The notes under the pieces were generated by a model. The model searched no databases. It was not told the origin of the DNA and saw nothing but the letters and a program-made list of their open reading frames with translations. A stretch of 50,487 bases of DNA from an uncultured bacterium (GTDB lineage: Bacteria; Planctomycetota; Phycisphaerae; Phycisphaerales; SM1A02). Positions 30,637 to 35,437 of the stretch are shown here, in pieces. Every line of letters starts with the position of its first letter. Position 1 is the stretch's first letter. The position numbers and the translations under genes are program-made. Location of the stretch: positions 1 through 50,487 of the forward strand of contig CAIUGT010000012.1 in the NCBI GenBank assembly GCA_903898755.1. Reading direction: 5' to 3'.

Positions 30637-30668
30637 CACCCAGTACTTCATTTTGATATTTGAACCTG

Positions 30669-31529
30669 ATGATGAATTCCTTTCCAGCAATTCTTTTTGG
30701 TGCCGTGATTGGCGCGGTTCTGGCCGGGCTTGCGGCGGCAGGTTCATTGCGCCGCCGCGCTGCCCGCGCGCTTGCCGCTGAACGACGCGCGCAATCCGCC
30801 GAAAGATTGGCGGAACTCGGAAGCATGACCAGCGGCTTGGCCCATGAAATTAAAAATCCGCTGTCCACCCTCACGCTCAACGCGCAGTTACTGCGAGAAG
30901 AAGTGCTTGACTCGGAATTGCCAGAGCCGGTACGCGCCACCGCGATTAAGCGGGCTGATGCGTTGGCGCGCGAGTCCAGTCGACTGAAGGATATTTTGAG
31001 CGACTTTCTACGCTTCGCTGGACGAATGAAACTTGATCCGCAGCCGCGCGACCTGAGAGAACTCATTCAAGAACTATCGGATTTTTTTCACCCTCAAGCG
31101 GAGCGTGCGGGAGTACTCATGCGCATCGACAATCCAGCCACGCCCGCCATATGCAATGTTGACTCCGGATTGTTGAAACAAGCCATTCTGAATTTAATCA
31201 TCAACGCTGTTCAAGCCATGAGTCCTGACGGCCAAGTTGCCGTGGGCGAAAGCCGTGGCGAATTACTGCTGCGCATTGAATCTGTTCCAGCCAACAAATT
31301 GCACGAAAGTGGCTATCGAATTGATGTGATTGATTCGGGACCAGGCATTGATGTCTCGCGTTTTGCGACCATTTTTCGCCCGTACGCCAGCACCAAGCCT
31401 GGCGGTAGCGGTCTTGGTCTCGCCACCACGCGCCGCATTGTGGAAGAACATGGCGGTCGCATAGAAGTCTTTAGTGACGCATCAAAAGGCACATGCTTTT
31501 CGCTGTTTCTGCCTGCAAAATCACTCTAG
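30669..31529 (+). CDS. Sensor histidine kinase with one membrane segment and no recognisable sensor domain
   Basis: Autophosphorylating kinase of a two-component system. The 286-residue protein has an N-terminal hydrophobic segment (~5-27), an Ala/Arg-rich coiled linker, the H-box GLAHEIKNPLSTL (His59) and an ATPase domain with N-box QAILNLIINAVQAM, G1 DSGPGI, F-box FRPYAS and G2 GGSGLGLATTRRIVEEHGG. This resembles NtrB-like kinases. No response-regulator gene is nearby, so it is an orphan. Start ATG 30669 (or 30672); the frame also offers TTG 30660. It overlaps the convergent top6A by nine bases. Confidence 0.9.
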   Translation: MMNSFPAILFGAVIGAVLAGLAAAGSLRRRAARALAAERRAQSAERLAELGSMTSGLAHEIKNPLSTLTLNAQLLREEVLDSELPEPVRATAIKRADALARESSRLKDILSDFLRFAGRMKLDPQPRDLRELIQELSDFFHPQAERAGVLMRIDNPATPAICNVDSGLLKQAILNLIINAVQAMSPDGQVAVGESRGELLLRIESVPANKLHESGYRIDVIDSGPGIDVSRFATIFRPYASTKPGGSGLGLATTRRIVEEHGGRIEVFSDASKGTCFSLFLPAKSL

Positions 31530-32648
31530 CCAATCTTTTGCCTTCAAACGCTGCGGAACATATTCCTCTGTCACGTATGAAATATCCTTGGTGATCAAGG
31601 ACTCCACTTCCATCTTGAAACCGTTTGTCAGAAGACCTTCAATTTCTTTTTGCCAAGGCTTATGACCTTGGAACCATGGATACGCGGCGATTTCTTTGGC
31701 ACGTTTAATGTCGTTGTCATTCAATGCAATTTGAACATCATCGCTCAGGCCGCACGCCTTGTAATCCTTGGCGCGAATGCCCAGAAATTTGGCCTCAGGA
31801 ATTGCAAGACGCTGACTTTCAAATGCCAGAGAAATGGAACCCTGCTTGATCACGCTGTAGATGTAATGCCCCCACGGATCACAATCAAGCAAGCAATACA
31901 CGGGCAACTTTAATTCCTCATGCAGGCGACGAAGCAATCTGCGCACGCCACGAGGCGGTTGTCCGCCACCTTCGGTCAAAATGCAATTGTGCTTCTCCCA
32001 AAATCGATCCTCATTGAAACGACTCCACACGGTATTTTTTTCAACGTGCAAAATAAACTTTGCTTCGCACTTCTTAAACTGAATCACATCTGGTTCCACA
32101 ATGCTGGGAATGGCGTAACCGCCTGAACCCATTCGGCGGCAATCAATCTCGTCGCCTGAATCCACCAAAGTGATATTGCCCACAATGCTGCCGGCTTTCT
32201 TGGCAAAAATGTGCAGTTCTTCGCGTAACGCGGTCAATGAAACTTCCAAGTCCTCCAAAATTCCGTCCGACTCGGTCTGATCAACGAATGTTTTTTCTTT
32301 GGTGCCTGCCACGGTGTGCAGACCTTTATAAAACATACCGCGCAAGCTCAGCGTCTTGTCGGCCTCGATTAAATCTTTAATGGAACCGGAATGCAGAAGC
32401 GTCTGCATGAAAATTTTCGCTTGATTCAAATTGAACAACTGACGATCTTGCGTTGCATTTCCCATTTCAAGAATGCCGCGCTTCTTATTCCAAATTGTGT
32501 TGGAACGCGAACGCGTAGGCACACTCACAATGGGCTCTTTACCACTCATCGCCGCCTTGGTCACGGTTTCAGCCAGCACGTAAATTTTCTTCTGCGTGTT
32601 GACATCGCGGGCTTTGGTGGAAACTTGCTTGCTTATTTTTTTGGCCAT
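31521..32648 (-). CDS. top6A: DNA topoisomerase VI subunit A (Spo11/Top6A family)
   Basis: DNA-cleaving subunit of a type IIB topoisomerase, which makes two-base-staggered double-strand breaks through a tyrosine. The 375 residues from ATG 32648 (GGAG upstream) show a winged-helix region with SLRGMFYKGL, whose Tyr107 aligns by eye with the catalytic tyrosine of archaeal Top6A. The Toprim domain carries AKFILHVEKNTVW (Glu203), GGGQPPRGVRRLLRRL and LLDCDPWGHYIYSVIKQGSI (Asp255, Asp257). The SLAFESQRLAIPEAKFLGI stretch is also typical. The two upstream residues before Phe-Tyr (Gly-Met) differ from the common R-D-[IL/V]-[YF]-Y. It follows top6B by 11 bases. Confidence 0.93.
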   Translation of the reverse strand: MAKKISKQVSTKARDVNTQKKIYVLAETVTKAAMSGKEPIVSVPTRSRSNTIWNKKRGILEMGNATQDRQLFNLNQAKIFMQTLLHSGSIKDLIEADKTLSLRGMFYKGLHTVAGTKEKTFVDQTESDGILEDLEVSLTALREELHIFAKKAGSIVGNITLVDSGDEIDCRRMGSGGYAIPSIVEPDVIQFKKCEAKFILHVEKNTVWSRFNEDRFWEKHNCILTEGGGQPPRGVRRLLRRLHEELKLPVYCLLDCDPWGHYIYSVIKQGSISLAFESQRLAIPEAKFLGIRAKDYKACGLSDDVQIALNDNDIKRAKEIAAYPWFQGHKPWQKEIEGLLTNGFKMEVESLITKDISYVTEEYVPQRLKAKDWLE

Positions 32649-32659
32649 AGGAACTCCAT

Positions 32660-34798
32660 TCAATCCGCTTCAAAGAGCGTCGGGGAATCATCATCACGCT
32701 TGGTTTTTTTAGACTTCACACTTGCGGTTTCGGAAGTCGTGGCACGCTTCGTTTTTGTTTTCAAATTTGCAGATTGAGATGGTTTTTTGGCTTCCAAATG
32801 AGAATCTTCCACTTCACTGCGGTCGCTTTGCGCCAGTGCGGGAATGGCATCAGCCACAACAAGCACGCCTTCTTGATCGGAAGGATCATCATTCTTCACC
32901 ACTTTGCCATCCTCGTTCAAGACTTGATCGGCTTGGCGAGTGCGTTGCTTGGCTTGCGCGAGCAATGCGTCGTACACCTTGCGTGTATCCGCGCCATGAA
33001 TGTGATGCAGGGACTTTGAAACTTCACCGATATAGCGCTCGAACACATCGCGACGCTCGCCTTCACGGCGCATCTTTAAGCGCTTTCGTAAATAACTTCC
33101 TAGCTTGCGCCCGCACTCCATGAGCGCCAATTTCATCTCCTTGCGAATCTCGTCGTAGTCAGCGATGGCTTCCTTTGACTCGCTTGTGAACGGAACCCAC
33201 ACGCTGGCCATATGAATTAAAATCACAAGTGGTCCCGTTGGTGTGCTGCCGCGCGGCTGCGTCAAACCATAGTTTTTCCAGCCTGTTTCAGCCACGGCTT
33301 TGAAACTGGAACACGCGCTTTGTTGAAACAAAAGAGGAACGCGATTGGCGAATCGAATCACGCGGCTTGATTCTTCTGTTGGCAACTCACCACCGAATGC
33401 AATAGCCGCCTCAATTTGAAATGGACGTCCGCGATAAATTTCTGGCTCGCGGCTGCTTGCCGCGTAAAATTCCGCGCGCACGCCCTTGAGCATTCCCGCC
33501 AACAATTGCCGCACGCCAATGGGCGCCAAACAATCAACCGGTGGAGGACCCAACTTAGCTTCTTGAAACGCCGCGAATAATTTTTCAGCTTGCTGCGGCT
33601 CCACATCACCGGCGCGCGTGCGACTGGTCGCACCTGCGGCTTCGCACAATGCTCCCGCGGTGCTTGCGGACACTCGGCAAAATTGATCTTGCAGAAATTT
33701 GTACAACGAGCCCTTCTCCGCGGCCTCGTACTCCTTCAACATTTGAAGCAGGGTGCCCAACTCCACGCCTTTGGGATGCGGCTGAATTTCGCGTGTTTCT
33801 GGCGGCAATTCATTCACCGCGCGTGGAAACATAATCACGCCATGGTGCTCGGAAGTGACTTCAACTTTGACCTCGCCTGCGTCTACGGCCGTTGCCGCGG
33901 TGCCCGCTGGAAGAAGCTCCTCATCATCCGCGCCACTCTCACGCGACGGCGGAACATAGGTAATGCGCGCGTGCGGATTGGCGATGCCAGTGAGCTCTAA
34001 AAACTCATCAACGGAACCACGACCTTTTTGATAGCGACCTTCGAGTTCAATGGAAACACTTGTTCCAGTAGGAAATATTTTTGGACTTAAAAATCCGTCA
34101 TTTGCCGCAAGCGAGCGCGAGCCCGCCGTCACATCTCGCAACTTCGCTGGCGGAAAATCTTTGGTCTCCGCGTCGGCCGTCACTTCGGCGCGATTTGTTT
34201 TTGTATTCATAGCCAACTCAATGCGGTGCGCCGCGTCGCTTGAGCGAATCTTGGTCACAATTTGCATGGGCTTGCCAGTGGTGATCAAGCCATACATGCC
34301 CGCCGCACTAATACCAATGCCCTGCTGCCCGCGGCTCATCTTCAAGCGGTGAAACTTTGATCCGTACAAAAGACGCCCGAAAATATTCTCGATTTGCTTG
34401 CGCACAATTCCTGGACCATTGTCCACGACAGTGATTCGGTAGCGCGAACTCTTGGAAGTCGCTGGTCGATCAGGTTGCAAATCTTCGATGATCACCGCGA
34501 GTTCAGGAAGAATTCCACCTTCTTCGCAGGCGTCCAAACTATTGTCAACCGCCTCTTTGACAGTGGTCAACAACGCCTTGCGCGGATTATCAAAACCCAG
34601 CAAGTGACGGTTCTTGGCGAAAAATTCACTGACGGAAATATCGCGCTGACGCGATCCCATTTCCTCCGCCGTGGCTCCGCGGCTCTTGCCTTTCCGTGGC
34701 GAGGCGCCATCACTCGATTCATCAACGCTATTTTTGGCGCGTGATTGACCTGACTTGGGTTGTTTTTTACTCATCAATGCGGCGTCCTTGCCAACCAT
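32660..34798 (-). CDS. top6B: DNA topoisomerase VI subunit B (GHKL ATPase)
   Basis: ATPase subunit that gates DNA transport through topoisomerase VI. The GHKL fold shows KEAVDNSLDA (81-90, Glu82 and Asn86), DNGPGI (126-131) and RGQQGIGIS (156-164). The H2TH region (~363-440) includes AFQEAKLGPPPVDCLAPIG. The transducer domain has TQPRGSTPTG and VPFTSESKEAIA with the switch Lys542. At 712 residues it exceeds typical archaeal subunits (~530). The excess lies in a basic N-terminal leader (1-50), insertions near 196-245 and 284-315, and a Lys/Ser/Thr-rich tail (628-712). AGGAG lies five bases before ATG 34798. Confidence 0.95.
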   Translation of the reverse strand: MVGKDAALMSKKQPKSGQSRAKNSVDESSDGASPRKGKSRGATAEEMGSRQRDISVSEFFAKNRHLLGFDNPRKALLTTVKEAVDNSLDACEEGGILPELAVIIEDLQPDRPATSKSSRYRITVVDNGPGIVRKQIENIFGRLLYGSKFHRLKMSRGQQGIGISAAGMYGLITTGKPMQIVTKIRSSDAAHRIELAMNTKTNRAEVTADAETKDFPPAKLRDVTAGSRSLAANDGFLSPKIFPTGTSVSIELEGRYQKGRGSVDEFLELTGIANPHARITYVPPSRESGADDEELLPAGTAATAVDAGEVKVEVTSEHHGVIMFPRAVNELPPETREIQPHPKGVELGTLLQMLKEYEAAEKGSLYKFLQDQFCRVSASTAGALCEAAGATSRTRAGDVEPQQAEKLFAAFQEAKLGPPPVDCLAPIGVRQLLAGMLKGVRAEFYAASSREPEIYRGRPFQIEAAIAFGGELPTEESSRVIRFANRVPLLFQQSACSSFKAVAETGWKNYGLTQPRGSTPTGPLVILIHMASVWVPFTSESKEAIADYDEIRKEMKLALMECGRKLGSYLRKRLKMRREGERRDVFERYIGEVSKSLHHIHGADTRKVYDALLAQAKQRTRQADQVLNEDGKVVKNDDPSDQEGVLVVADAIPALAQSDRSEVEDSHLEAKKPSQSANLKTKTKRATTSETASVKSKKTKRDDDSPTLFEAD

Positions 34799-34966
34799 GC
34801 TGACTCCTATTCACTATCTCTACGAAAGGGCGAAAGTACTGCTTCTTCGGCTCGCTTGGGCAATCCTCAACGCATTTTCTTTGAAATCACGCTTTGGAAA
34901 CTCCTTCAAGTCGAATATTTTCGTTACCATTTGTTCCCCAACAACCTCAACCATAAAGGAAATCTC

Positions 34967-35437
34967 ATGGAAACAACACTGATCATTCTCAAGCCAGACG
35001 CCGTGCAACGCAACCTCATGGGACGAATCTTGACCCGCTTTGAGGACAAGGGACTGCAAATTGTGGGCTGCAAACTGATGCGTATTTCGCAGGAACTTGC
35101 CGCTGAACACTACAAAGACCATGCTTCCAAACCTTTTTACCCTGGCCTTGTTCGCTTCATGACTGGCAACCCAGTCTTGACCATGGCCGTACGAGGAATT
35201 GGCGCGATCACCATTTGCCGAGGCATGATGGGTGCCACATTTGGCAGCAAAGCCGCCGCTGGAACTATTCGCGGCGACTTTGGAGTCTCAAATAGTTACA
35301 ACCTAATTCATGGTTCTGACAGCCCAGAAGCCGCAACCCGCGAACTGGGTCTGTTTTTCAAGGCCGGCGAGATTCTTGAATACTCGCGAGTCGGAGATAG
35401 TTACGTCTACGATTCAACGGGTAGCAAGCCAGAGTAA
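34967..35437 (+). CDS. ndk: Nucleoside diphosphate kinase
   Basis: Balances NTP pools by phosphate transfer through a histidine. The 156 residues start METTLIILKPDAVQRNLMGR. The active-site segment NLIHGSDSPEAATRELGLFF carries the catalytic His, and MGATFGSKAAAGTIRGDFGV is the nucleotide-binding stretch. AAAGGA precedes the ATG at 34967; the upstream frame is not Ndk. It diverges from top6B with a 168-base gap that should contain both promoters. Confidence 0.97.
   Translation: METTLIILKPDAVQRNLMGRILTRFEDKGLQIVGCKLMRISQELAAEHYKDHASKPFYPGLVRFMTGNPVLTMAVRGIGAITICRGMMGATFGSKAAAGTIRGDFGVSNSYNLIHGSDSPEAATRELGLFFKAGEILEYSRVGDSYVYDSTGSKPE

Follow-up and report, generated by a model that had tools for sequence, protein, structure and literature searches.

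Introduction

Topoisomerase VI (topo VI) works through ATP-driven closing of a dimer of B subunits, cleavage of a DNA gate by a dimer of A subunits, passage of a second duplex and resealing. Two neighbouring genes for such an enzyme, top6B and top6A, lie in contig CAIUGT010000012.1 of an uncultured planctomycete of the order Phycisphaerales (lineage SM1A02; GenBank assembly GCA_903898755.1), the whole 50,487 nucleotides of which we refer to as the window. The question raised by this locus is what a type IIB topoisomerase does in a bacterium that also has gyrase, and where it came from. We consider it probable that a working topo VI would unlink replicated chromosomes here in place of topo IV, with gyrase handling supercoiling, and that the gene pair is DPANN-derived and old in its family. 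The features that point in this direction are all read from sequence: the identity of the genes, their intact active sites, the single gyrase, the failure to find topo IV, a setting conserved in the family and kinship with DPANN archaea.

The window encodes a complete topoisomerase VI

At the sequence level, positions 31521-34798 of the window are confirmed as encoding a true, complete two-subunit topo VI in one predicted operon (Table 1). The initial annotation had claimed a complete top6B-top6A pair, and this is borne out by Pfam, NCBIfam and solved-structure matches as well as by conserved residues; profile searches that could have placed the genes in a different GHKL or Toprim family matched topo VI families instead. 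Top6B carries Topo-VIb_trans (PF09239, E 1.6e-55) and HATPase_c above cut-off, the GHKL ATPase being recognized via PF02518/PF13589, and Top6A carries TOP6A-Spo11_Toprim (E 5.2e-58), TP6A_N and Topo_VI_alpha, each above cut-off (PF04406, PF21180, PF20768). In NCBIfam, Top6B scored 595.5 bits with PRK04184.1 (cut-off 274) and Top6A 511.1 bits with PRK04342.1-2 (cut-off 465). Unlike topo IV (ParC/ParE), neither subunit matched the type IIA families PF00521 and PF00204 in the Pfam scan. Several NCBIfam models for topo VI subunit A (NF003333 / PRK04342.1-2) carry the title 'DNA topoisomerase IV subunit A', a label that can mislead automatic annotation of bacterial topo VI.

A search of solved structures at E 0.001 returned topo VI entries exclusively for both subunits. 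The M. mazei enzyme (2q2e, 9o0g) is the best solved match of Top6B (438.9 bits, ~40% identity in the fold alignment), but its Top6A is of the other of two deep types described below (154 bits). The S. shibatae enzyme (2zbk), conversely, provides the best solved match of Top6A (267.3 bits) and shares its deep type, whereas its Top6B matches less closely (253.5 bits).

Neither open reading frame (ORF) contains an internal stop. The two-gene operon with ribosome-binding sites that had been claimed is visible in the 11-nt spacing and in the sites themselves, AGGAG standing 5 nt before the top6B ATG and GGAG before top6A. For top6A the ORF tool offered an alternative TTG start at 32663, giving 380 amino acids (aa); the ATG at 32648 is the likelier start because GGAG sits 5 nt upstream of it. 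Counted from this ATG, the catalytic Tyr107 and the metal-binding Glu203, Asp255 and Asp257 of Top6A carry exactly the numbers first assigned to them (Y112, E208, D260 and D262 from the TTG), and all four, the catalytic tyrosine included, are identical in every row of an 89-row alignment that has a letter there. The GHKL motifs, switch lysine and SESKEAIA stretch reported earlier for Top6B are likewise present and conserved: E82, N86, D126-N127-G128-P-G130, G157-Q-Q-G160-I-G162 and G245-T246 make up the motifs, and Lys542, within SESKEAIA, is invariant.

With these residues the protein would act as an A2B2 type IIB enzyme. The Top6B GHKL domain would bind ATP, Top6B would dimerise around the transported DNA segment, and the transducer would relay ATP-driven closure to Top6A; there Tyr107, with Mg2+ on Glu203/Asp255/Asp257, would cut the double strand with a two-nucleotide stagger, and a second duplex would pass the break before it is resealed. 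In topo VIII, which shares the type IIB catalytic modules, A and B are fused in one polypeptide, whereas the window has two separate chromosomal ORFs. In the Spo11/topo VIB-like meiotic complex, B is degenerate and lacks H2TH, and A branches with eukaryotic Spo11; the ATPase motifs of the window B subunit are intact.

The predicted model of Top6B (mean pLDDT 77.6, from a 41-row alignment) resembles solved topo VI-B structures, those from M. mazei and from S. shibatae, at Foldseek E values as low as 2e-52, with 564-575 columns aligned to M. mazei Top6B. Its layout comprises a GHKL ATPase, a helical middle region, a transducer and a low-confidence Lys-rich tail (residues 651-712). In the middle region, residues 325-413 gave an NFACT_N match below cut-off, the H2TH model is absent from the Pfam hits, and the model has helices at 347-413. 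The pLDDT is below 50 at residues 1-33, 145-150, 158-160, 290-309, 636-641 and nearly all of 651-712, and residues 2-18, 109-115, 217-241, 287-319, 651-678 and 692-712 are present in <40% of 85 B rows. Residues 217-241, 287-319 and 651-712 stand out as inserts plus a Lys/Ser-rich low-confidence tail that are not found in most relatives. This tail might bind DNA; M. mazei Top6B, by contrast, has an Ig-like C-terminal domain (PMC11302465; this and the other papers are cited from part of their text).

Topoisomerase VI is common in the phylum

The initial annotation described topo VI as known in only a few bacteria, which undersells it, as it is present in roughly half of the 392 genomes sampled from the phylum Planctomycetota and its occurrence in planctomycetes is already published. 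The survey with gyrase and topo IV that had been proposed was run across these 392 genomes and, for the order, on a sample of 31. Top6A was matched in 187 and Top6B in 191 of the 392 (119 and 122 of the 217 genomes with completeness of 90% or more and contamination of 5% or less), and the order sample gave 22/31 and 23/31, the extra genome (G364) having a contig-end Top6A fragment. Topo VI in the window genome is thus expected for the phylum, neither rare nor new. The nearest named locus, L107 of Phycisphaerales bacterium Baikal-deep-G174, is 98% identical in Top6A and 94% in Top6B, and L108, of an uncultured bacterium, 98% and 99%.

In the portion of their survey cited here, Allen and Maxwell (2024) report topo VI in 17 bacterial families; five are planctomycete, namely Anaerohalosphaeraceae, Sedimentisphaeraceae, Lacipirellulaceae, Pirellulaceae and Thermoguttaceae, and their holders are reported to lack topo IV (PMC11302465). 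Two of the five were confirmed as members of the class Phycisphaerae. We take Lacipirellulaceae, Pirellulaceae and Thermoguttaceae to be planctomycete families. Like the window, the published cases pair A and B genes in gyrase-bearing bacteria, and a decatenase role was proposed for them, but the planctomycete examples come from those five families whereas the window belongs to Phycisphaerales (PMC11302465). The same text proposes an archaeal origin of bacterial topo VI via at least two transfers and describes its role as open (PMC11302465); PMC9348778 also seems to bear on topo VI evolution. A literature search, with most subscription journals outside its reach, found no paper joining 'topo VI' and Phycisphaer. 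Relative to the cited part of Allen and Maxwell (PMC11302465), the present analysis adds the frequency in the phylum, a within-family contrast with a ParC-like enzyme and close DPANN relatives.

An apparent tendency of topoisomerase VI and a ParC-like enzyme to replace each other

The window genome (2.59 Mb in 154 contigs, 91.6% complete) holds a single gene of each type IIA family: a GyrA in PF00521, whose GyrA box reads QSRGGKG, and a GyrB in PF00204. The 'second topoisomerase alongside gyrase' of the initial annotation is best read as a stand-in for a missing topo IV; for the chromosome-compaction role also raised there, no sign was seen, though no test was aimed at it. The single-contig relatives G368 and G339, which have Top6A, likewise have one PF00521 gene, as do all 22 Top6A-bearing genomes of the order. 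In family f4 of the same order, by contrast, all seven genomes are without Top6A and Top6B, and all seven have two PF00521 genes, the second being in each case of a distinct type with RYLNY at the catalytic site and no GyrA box found. This RYLNY type forms a single clade (SH-aLRT 99, 17 rows).

The contrast recurs elsewhere. In f72 the one Top6-less genome (G274) carries the RYLNY type and the seven others have Top6A and one PF00521 copy; in f37 it is carried by three Top6-less genomes of genus g149, with 18 others bearing Top6; and in f20 by the Top6-less G013 and G042, with three others bearing Top6. Because Top6A-bearing genomes of the order have one PF00521 gene against two in f4, and the pattern returns in f72, f37 and f20, topo VI is the likely decatenase replacing topo IV. 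In the type IIA tree, which covers 60 of 61 chosen loci (L309 out; 18 of 30 loci from Top6A-bearing genomes with multiple PF00521 matches lie outside it), the RYLNY genes of f72 and f37 fall among those of f4, so this ParC-like enzyme seems to have moved between families. Among the 384 genomes with a PF00521 match, those with Top6A divide into 164 with a single and 18 with multiple matches, and those without Top6A into 95 and 107 (Fisher p 1.4e-20, kinship not corrected); the other 8 of the 392 (five with Top6A, three without) have no PF00521 match and stand outside this count.

The GyrA box proved unsuitable as a marker: the strict pattern found four of the seven GyrA-type genes of f4 and none in the GyrA-type genes of f37, f20, f14 and f94, bar the second gene in G300. 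Since the pattern misses true GyrA genes, clade membership and the motif RYL[NH]Y, not absence of the box, serve to delimit the ParC-like type.

Allen and Maxwell had already proposed that topo VI compensates for absent topo IV, and they mention unpublished data in which an E. coli parE-ts mutant is complemented by the M. mazei enzyme (PMC11302465). The apparent exchange between topo VI and the ParC-like enzyme, as far as gene content indicates, amounts to a tendency rather than a rule, and is the mild surprise of this study.

The pair has its closest archaeal relatives in DPANN

Top6A and Top6B were read from 60 loci (A in 53, B in 49). A quick A tree of 102 rows left out named loci of <330 aa and 21 rows judged redundant, and a quick B tree of 80 rows kept named rows of at least 500 aa, with 18 rows dropped. 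The careful sets with DPANN are chosen subsets of 85 B and 89 A rows, and the careful B tree holds 57 of the 85. The Top6A trees contain no Spo11 sequence. The 73 named Top6A loci are a codon-selected and not a random sample, and no TACK archaea were noticed among their titles.

Planctomycete Top6A falls into two deeply split types. Type I, 50-86% identical to the window protein among the genomes read, occurs in the window, in Phycisphaerales, in families grouping with named Pirellulaceae/Thermogutta loci and in f53, f79, f55 and f62. Type II, 31-37% identical to the window, occurs in other orders of the class and in many families. Window Top6A was also matched in 209 of 236 genomes from the phylum to which L112, a Woesearchaeota genome, belongs, and Top6A was read in 27 of the 209; we take this phylum to be DPANN. 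Among the matches listed, 89 rows have 39-56% identity, followed by a gap in E from 3e-78 to 6e-61 and then by rows at 32-38%. Both Top6A types are found in DPANN. The Top6A proteins of the best-matching genomes, G558, G578 and G508, are 54-56% identical to that of the window, and top6B lies directly upstream of top6A there too, but DPANN Top6B has 514-618 aa in rows looking complete, as against 712 in the window.

A phylogeny of both subunits, which the initial annotation had called for, places the nearest archaeal relatives of each in the Woesearchaeota phylum. In the A tree the type I rows of bacteria fall among those of DPANN. In the careful B tree, the type I B rows of bacteria (99/93) have DPANN G508 and G558 as their sisters (97/86). 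Because type I A and B rows both adjoin DPANN type I rows, the trees fit an origin in which both genes were transferred together from a DPANN-like archaeon, although the direction of transfer is something we infer. With the B data, one clade of all bacteria was not rejected (this tree being 22 log-likelihood units (lnL) above the free quick tree, p 0.75), and one clade of type I holders and S. shibatae was rejected (delta lnL 112, p 0.002), S. shibatae being the sole TACK sequence and a long branch. For the A data the bacterial type I rows as one clade minus DPANN were not rejected (p 0.40), and all bacteria as one clade were (delta lnL 461, p 4e-6). These two rejections leave A and B discordant across the archaea.

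A swap of the bacterial A subunit under a kept Top6B was first suggested by the quick trees, with their two A types and one bacterial B clade; it is no longer required, since DPANN hold both A types and two intact-pair transfers fit equally. Within DPANN itself, A type and B kinship are discordant: G466 (L224) has a type I A and a B that lies in a clade of Woesearchaeota whose A is type II. More broadly, rows L210-L233 show two deeply split Top6A types, yet their Top6B proteins are closely related and intermixed. Top6A and Top6B thus seem to have been re-paired during DPANN evolution, judging from these placements.

Several further observations concern the make-up of the pair. In DPANN, the Top6B of G420 (L215) lies inside a 1589-aa open frame and that of G578 (L234, L236) inside one of 1069 aa, possible inteins or fusions; G578 also has its transducer match in two parts. 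Among planctomycetes, G016, G054, G125 and G171 have two Top6A matches and one Top6B match each; both copies of G054 were read and are type II (L076, L077), and the second copy in the other three may be a fragment. G147, G182 and G228 have Top6B without a Top6A match at threshold, which may reflect assembly gaps or lone B genes. Metagenome-assembled genomes (MAGs) of further bacterial phyla hold topo VI as well, of type I in Rokubacteria (L121, L148) and of type II in Verrucomicrobia (L116) and Eisenbacteria (L161).

Chromosomal setting

The operon lies between a divergent nucleoside diphosphate kinase (NDK) gene and a convergent sensor histidine kinase (HK) gene (Table 1); other neighbours are a sigma-70-type factor, CspA, PNPase and a carboxyl transferase gene. 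We read ~20 kb around the operon in each of 15 genomes of the order. The block NDK-top6B-top6A-HK-CspA-PNPase-S15, whose last ORF we take to be ribosomal protein S15, is kept in five genomes of the window's own family (G360, G376, G251, G295 and G380) and, minus the CspA and sigma matches, in G348; G368 retains sigma-NDK and HK, and G337 only HK. In the seven genomes (all in f2, f3 and f5) read from other families, the tested neighbours are not adjacent to the operon; the exceptions are NDK ~3 kb off in G270 and PilB or PilC matches farther away in G384 and G278. The location of the operon would accordingly be old within its own family, and the other families of the order lend no support to a greater age. 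The ordinary chromosomal surroundings described at the outset are reflected in the housekeeping neighbours and in this family synteny, from which a mobile element was judged unlikely. The GC content near the operon is 0.49-0.51 in 2-kb steps, inside the window range of 0.48-0.56. The window has no Rfam match and no tRNA (a mobile-element search as such was not made).

Elsewhere in the class, in orders other than that of the window, the two genes can be separated: >400 kb lie between them in the single-contig genomes G127, G287 and G311, and they are on different contigs in G157 and G057.

Table 1. Features of the topo VI locus (window coordinates)
Feature	Position	Strand	Evidence
top6B, topoisomerase VI subunit B, 712 aa	32660..34798	-	ORF call, Pfam, NCBIfam, solved-structure match, alignment, predicted model
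top6A, topoisomerase VI subunit A, 375 aa from ATG at 32648	31521..32648	-	ORF call, Pfam, NCBIfam, solved-structure match, alignment
11-nt spacer, top6B stop to top6A ATG; contains GGAG ribosome-binding site of top6A	32649..32659	-	sequence
AGGAG ribosome-binding site of top6B	34804..34808	-	sequence
NDK ORF, family match from near 34970; divergent neighbour, conserved block	34760..35437	+	ORF call, Pfam
HK, convergent neighbour, overlaps top6A end by 9 bases; conserved block	30660..31529	+	ORF call, Pfam

Discussion

For the window enzyme we infer topo VI activity and decatenation as the main role, and several observations pull the other way. The strict rule that topo VI excludes topo IV is too strong, as 18 of the 182 Top6A-bearing genomes with any PF00521 match have at least two. 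In 14 of these the second match spans nearly the whole domain (G019, G025, G035, G050, G100, G119, G176, G179, G186, G189, G192, G203, G245 and G300), so topo VI and a second type IIA A subunit can coexist; in 11 of the 14 (not G119, G186 and G300) the second match is shorter and lower-scoring, in open frames of 558-716 aa. Of the rest, G254 has a partial second match, and the matches in G116, G139 and G298 resemble fragments of one broken gene or pieces at contig ends. G186 (f14) combines topo VI with the RYLNY type, and G119 combines it with two genes having a GyrA box; the cited part of PMC11302465 reports triple sets of this kind only in Pseudomonadota and Terrabacteria. Conversely, 95 genomes have a single PF00521 match and no Top6A, so the phylum does not strictly require a separate decatenase; families f29, f39 and f49 are mostly of this kind, and G172 (f2), 98% complete, has neither topo VI nor the ParC-like enzyme. 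The second PF00521 genes of the Top6A-less G302 and G374 are without assignment to the RYLNY type, and the ParC-like class is known here from A-subunit genes alone. A test of independent pairs on the GyrA tree (37 rows), with genomes partly picked by state, is not significant (p 0.06-0.125): of eight pairs, four to five behave as expected, none is opposed and the rest are equal. Finally, at 91.6% completeness and 154 contigs, parC/parE may have been missed in the window genome. The coexisting near-complete A subunits, and the single-copy genomes in which gyrase alone seems enough, would suit a topo VI that is active mainly for another purpose, be it positive supercoil relaxation, transcription or nucleoid compaction, with gyrase alone decatenating. 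We regard this as rather unlikely, since the exchange with the ParC-like enzyme in f4, f72, f37 and f20 suggests a shared job, and the M. mazei enzyme prefers decatenation and relaxes DNA poorly (PMC8837201).

Two other explanations can be given far less weight. Top6 homologs form the nuclease component of Wadjet, Gabija and MksG systems (PMC13040014), and Top6A might on this ground be a Spo11-like or defence nuclease instead of a topoisomerase; this is very improbable, as the same operon encodes a complete Top6B that has the GHKL domain, the transducer and the switch lysine, the solved-structure matches are solely topo VI, and the neighbours are housekeeping genes (no search was aimed at defence systems). 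Recent mobile acquisition without a settled function appears more improbable still. The archaeal origin of bacterial topo VI, its scatter over several phyla and the different neighbours in other families of the order would agree with it, but in seven own-family genomes, at 55-75% Top6B identity, NDK and HK flank the operon, and its GC matches the window. A DPANN-derived topo VI that took the place of topo IV in chromosome unlinking is the explanation that we find most likely.

Beyond the window, it is quite possible, if short of probable, that the decatenase post has been swapped repeatedly in the phylum, between DPANN topo VI (at least two uptakes, with two Top6A types) and a roaming ParC-like type IIA enzyme, and that Top6A and Top6B were re-paired in DPANN. 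If so, each arriving decatenase would make the other dispensable, and the phylum would be a natural experiment on the interchangeability of type IIB and type IIA enzymes for unlinking chromosomes. Re-pairing would mean that a Top6A of the S. shibatae or Methanocaldococcus side was joined to closely related DPANN Top6B. The significance lies in the distribution: sister families and genera of which one has topo VI and another the ParC-like enzyme are ready pairs in which a bacterial decatenase role could be tested, and planctomycetes would offer a tractable system for type IIB topoisomerases beyond archaea and plants.

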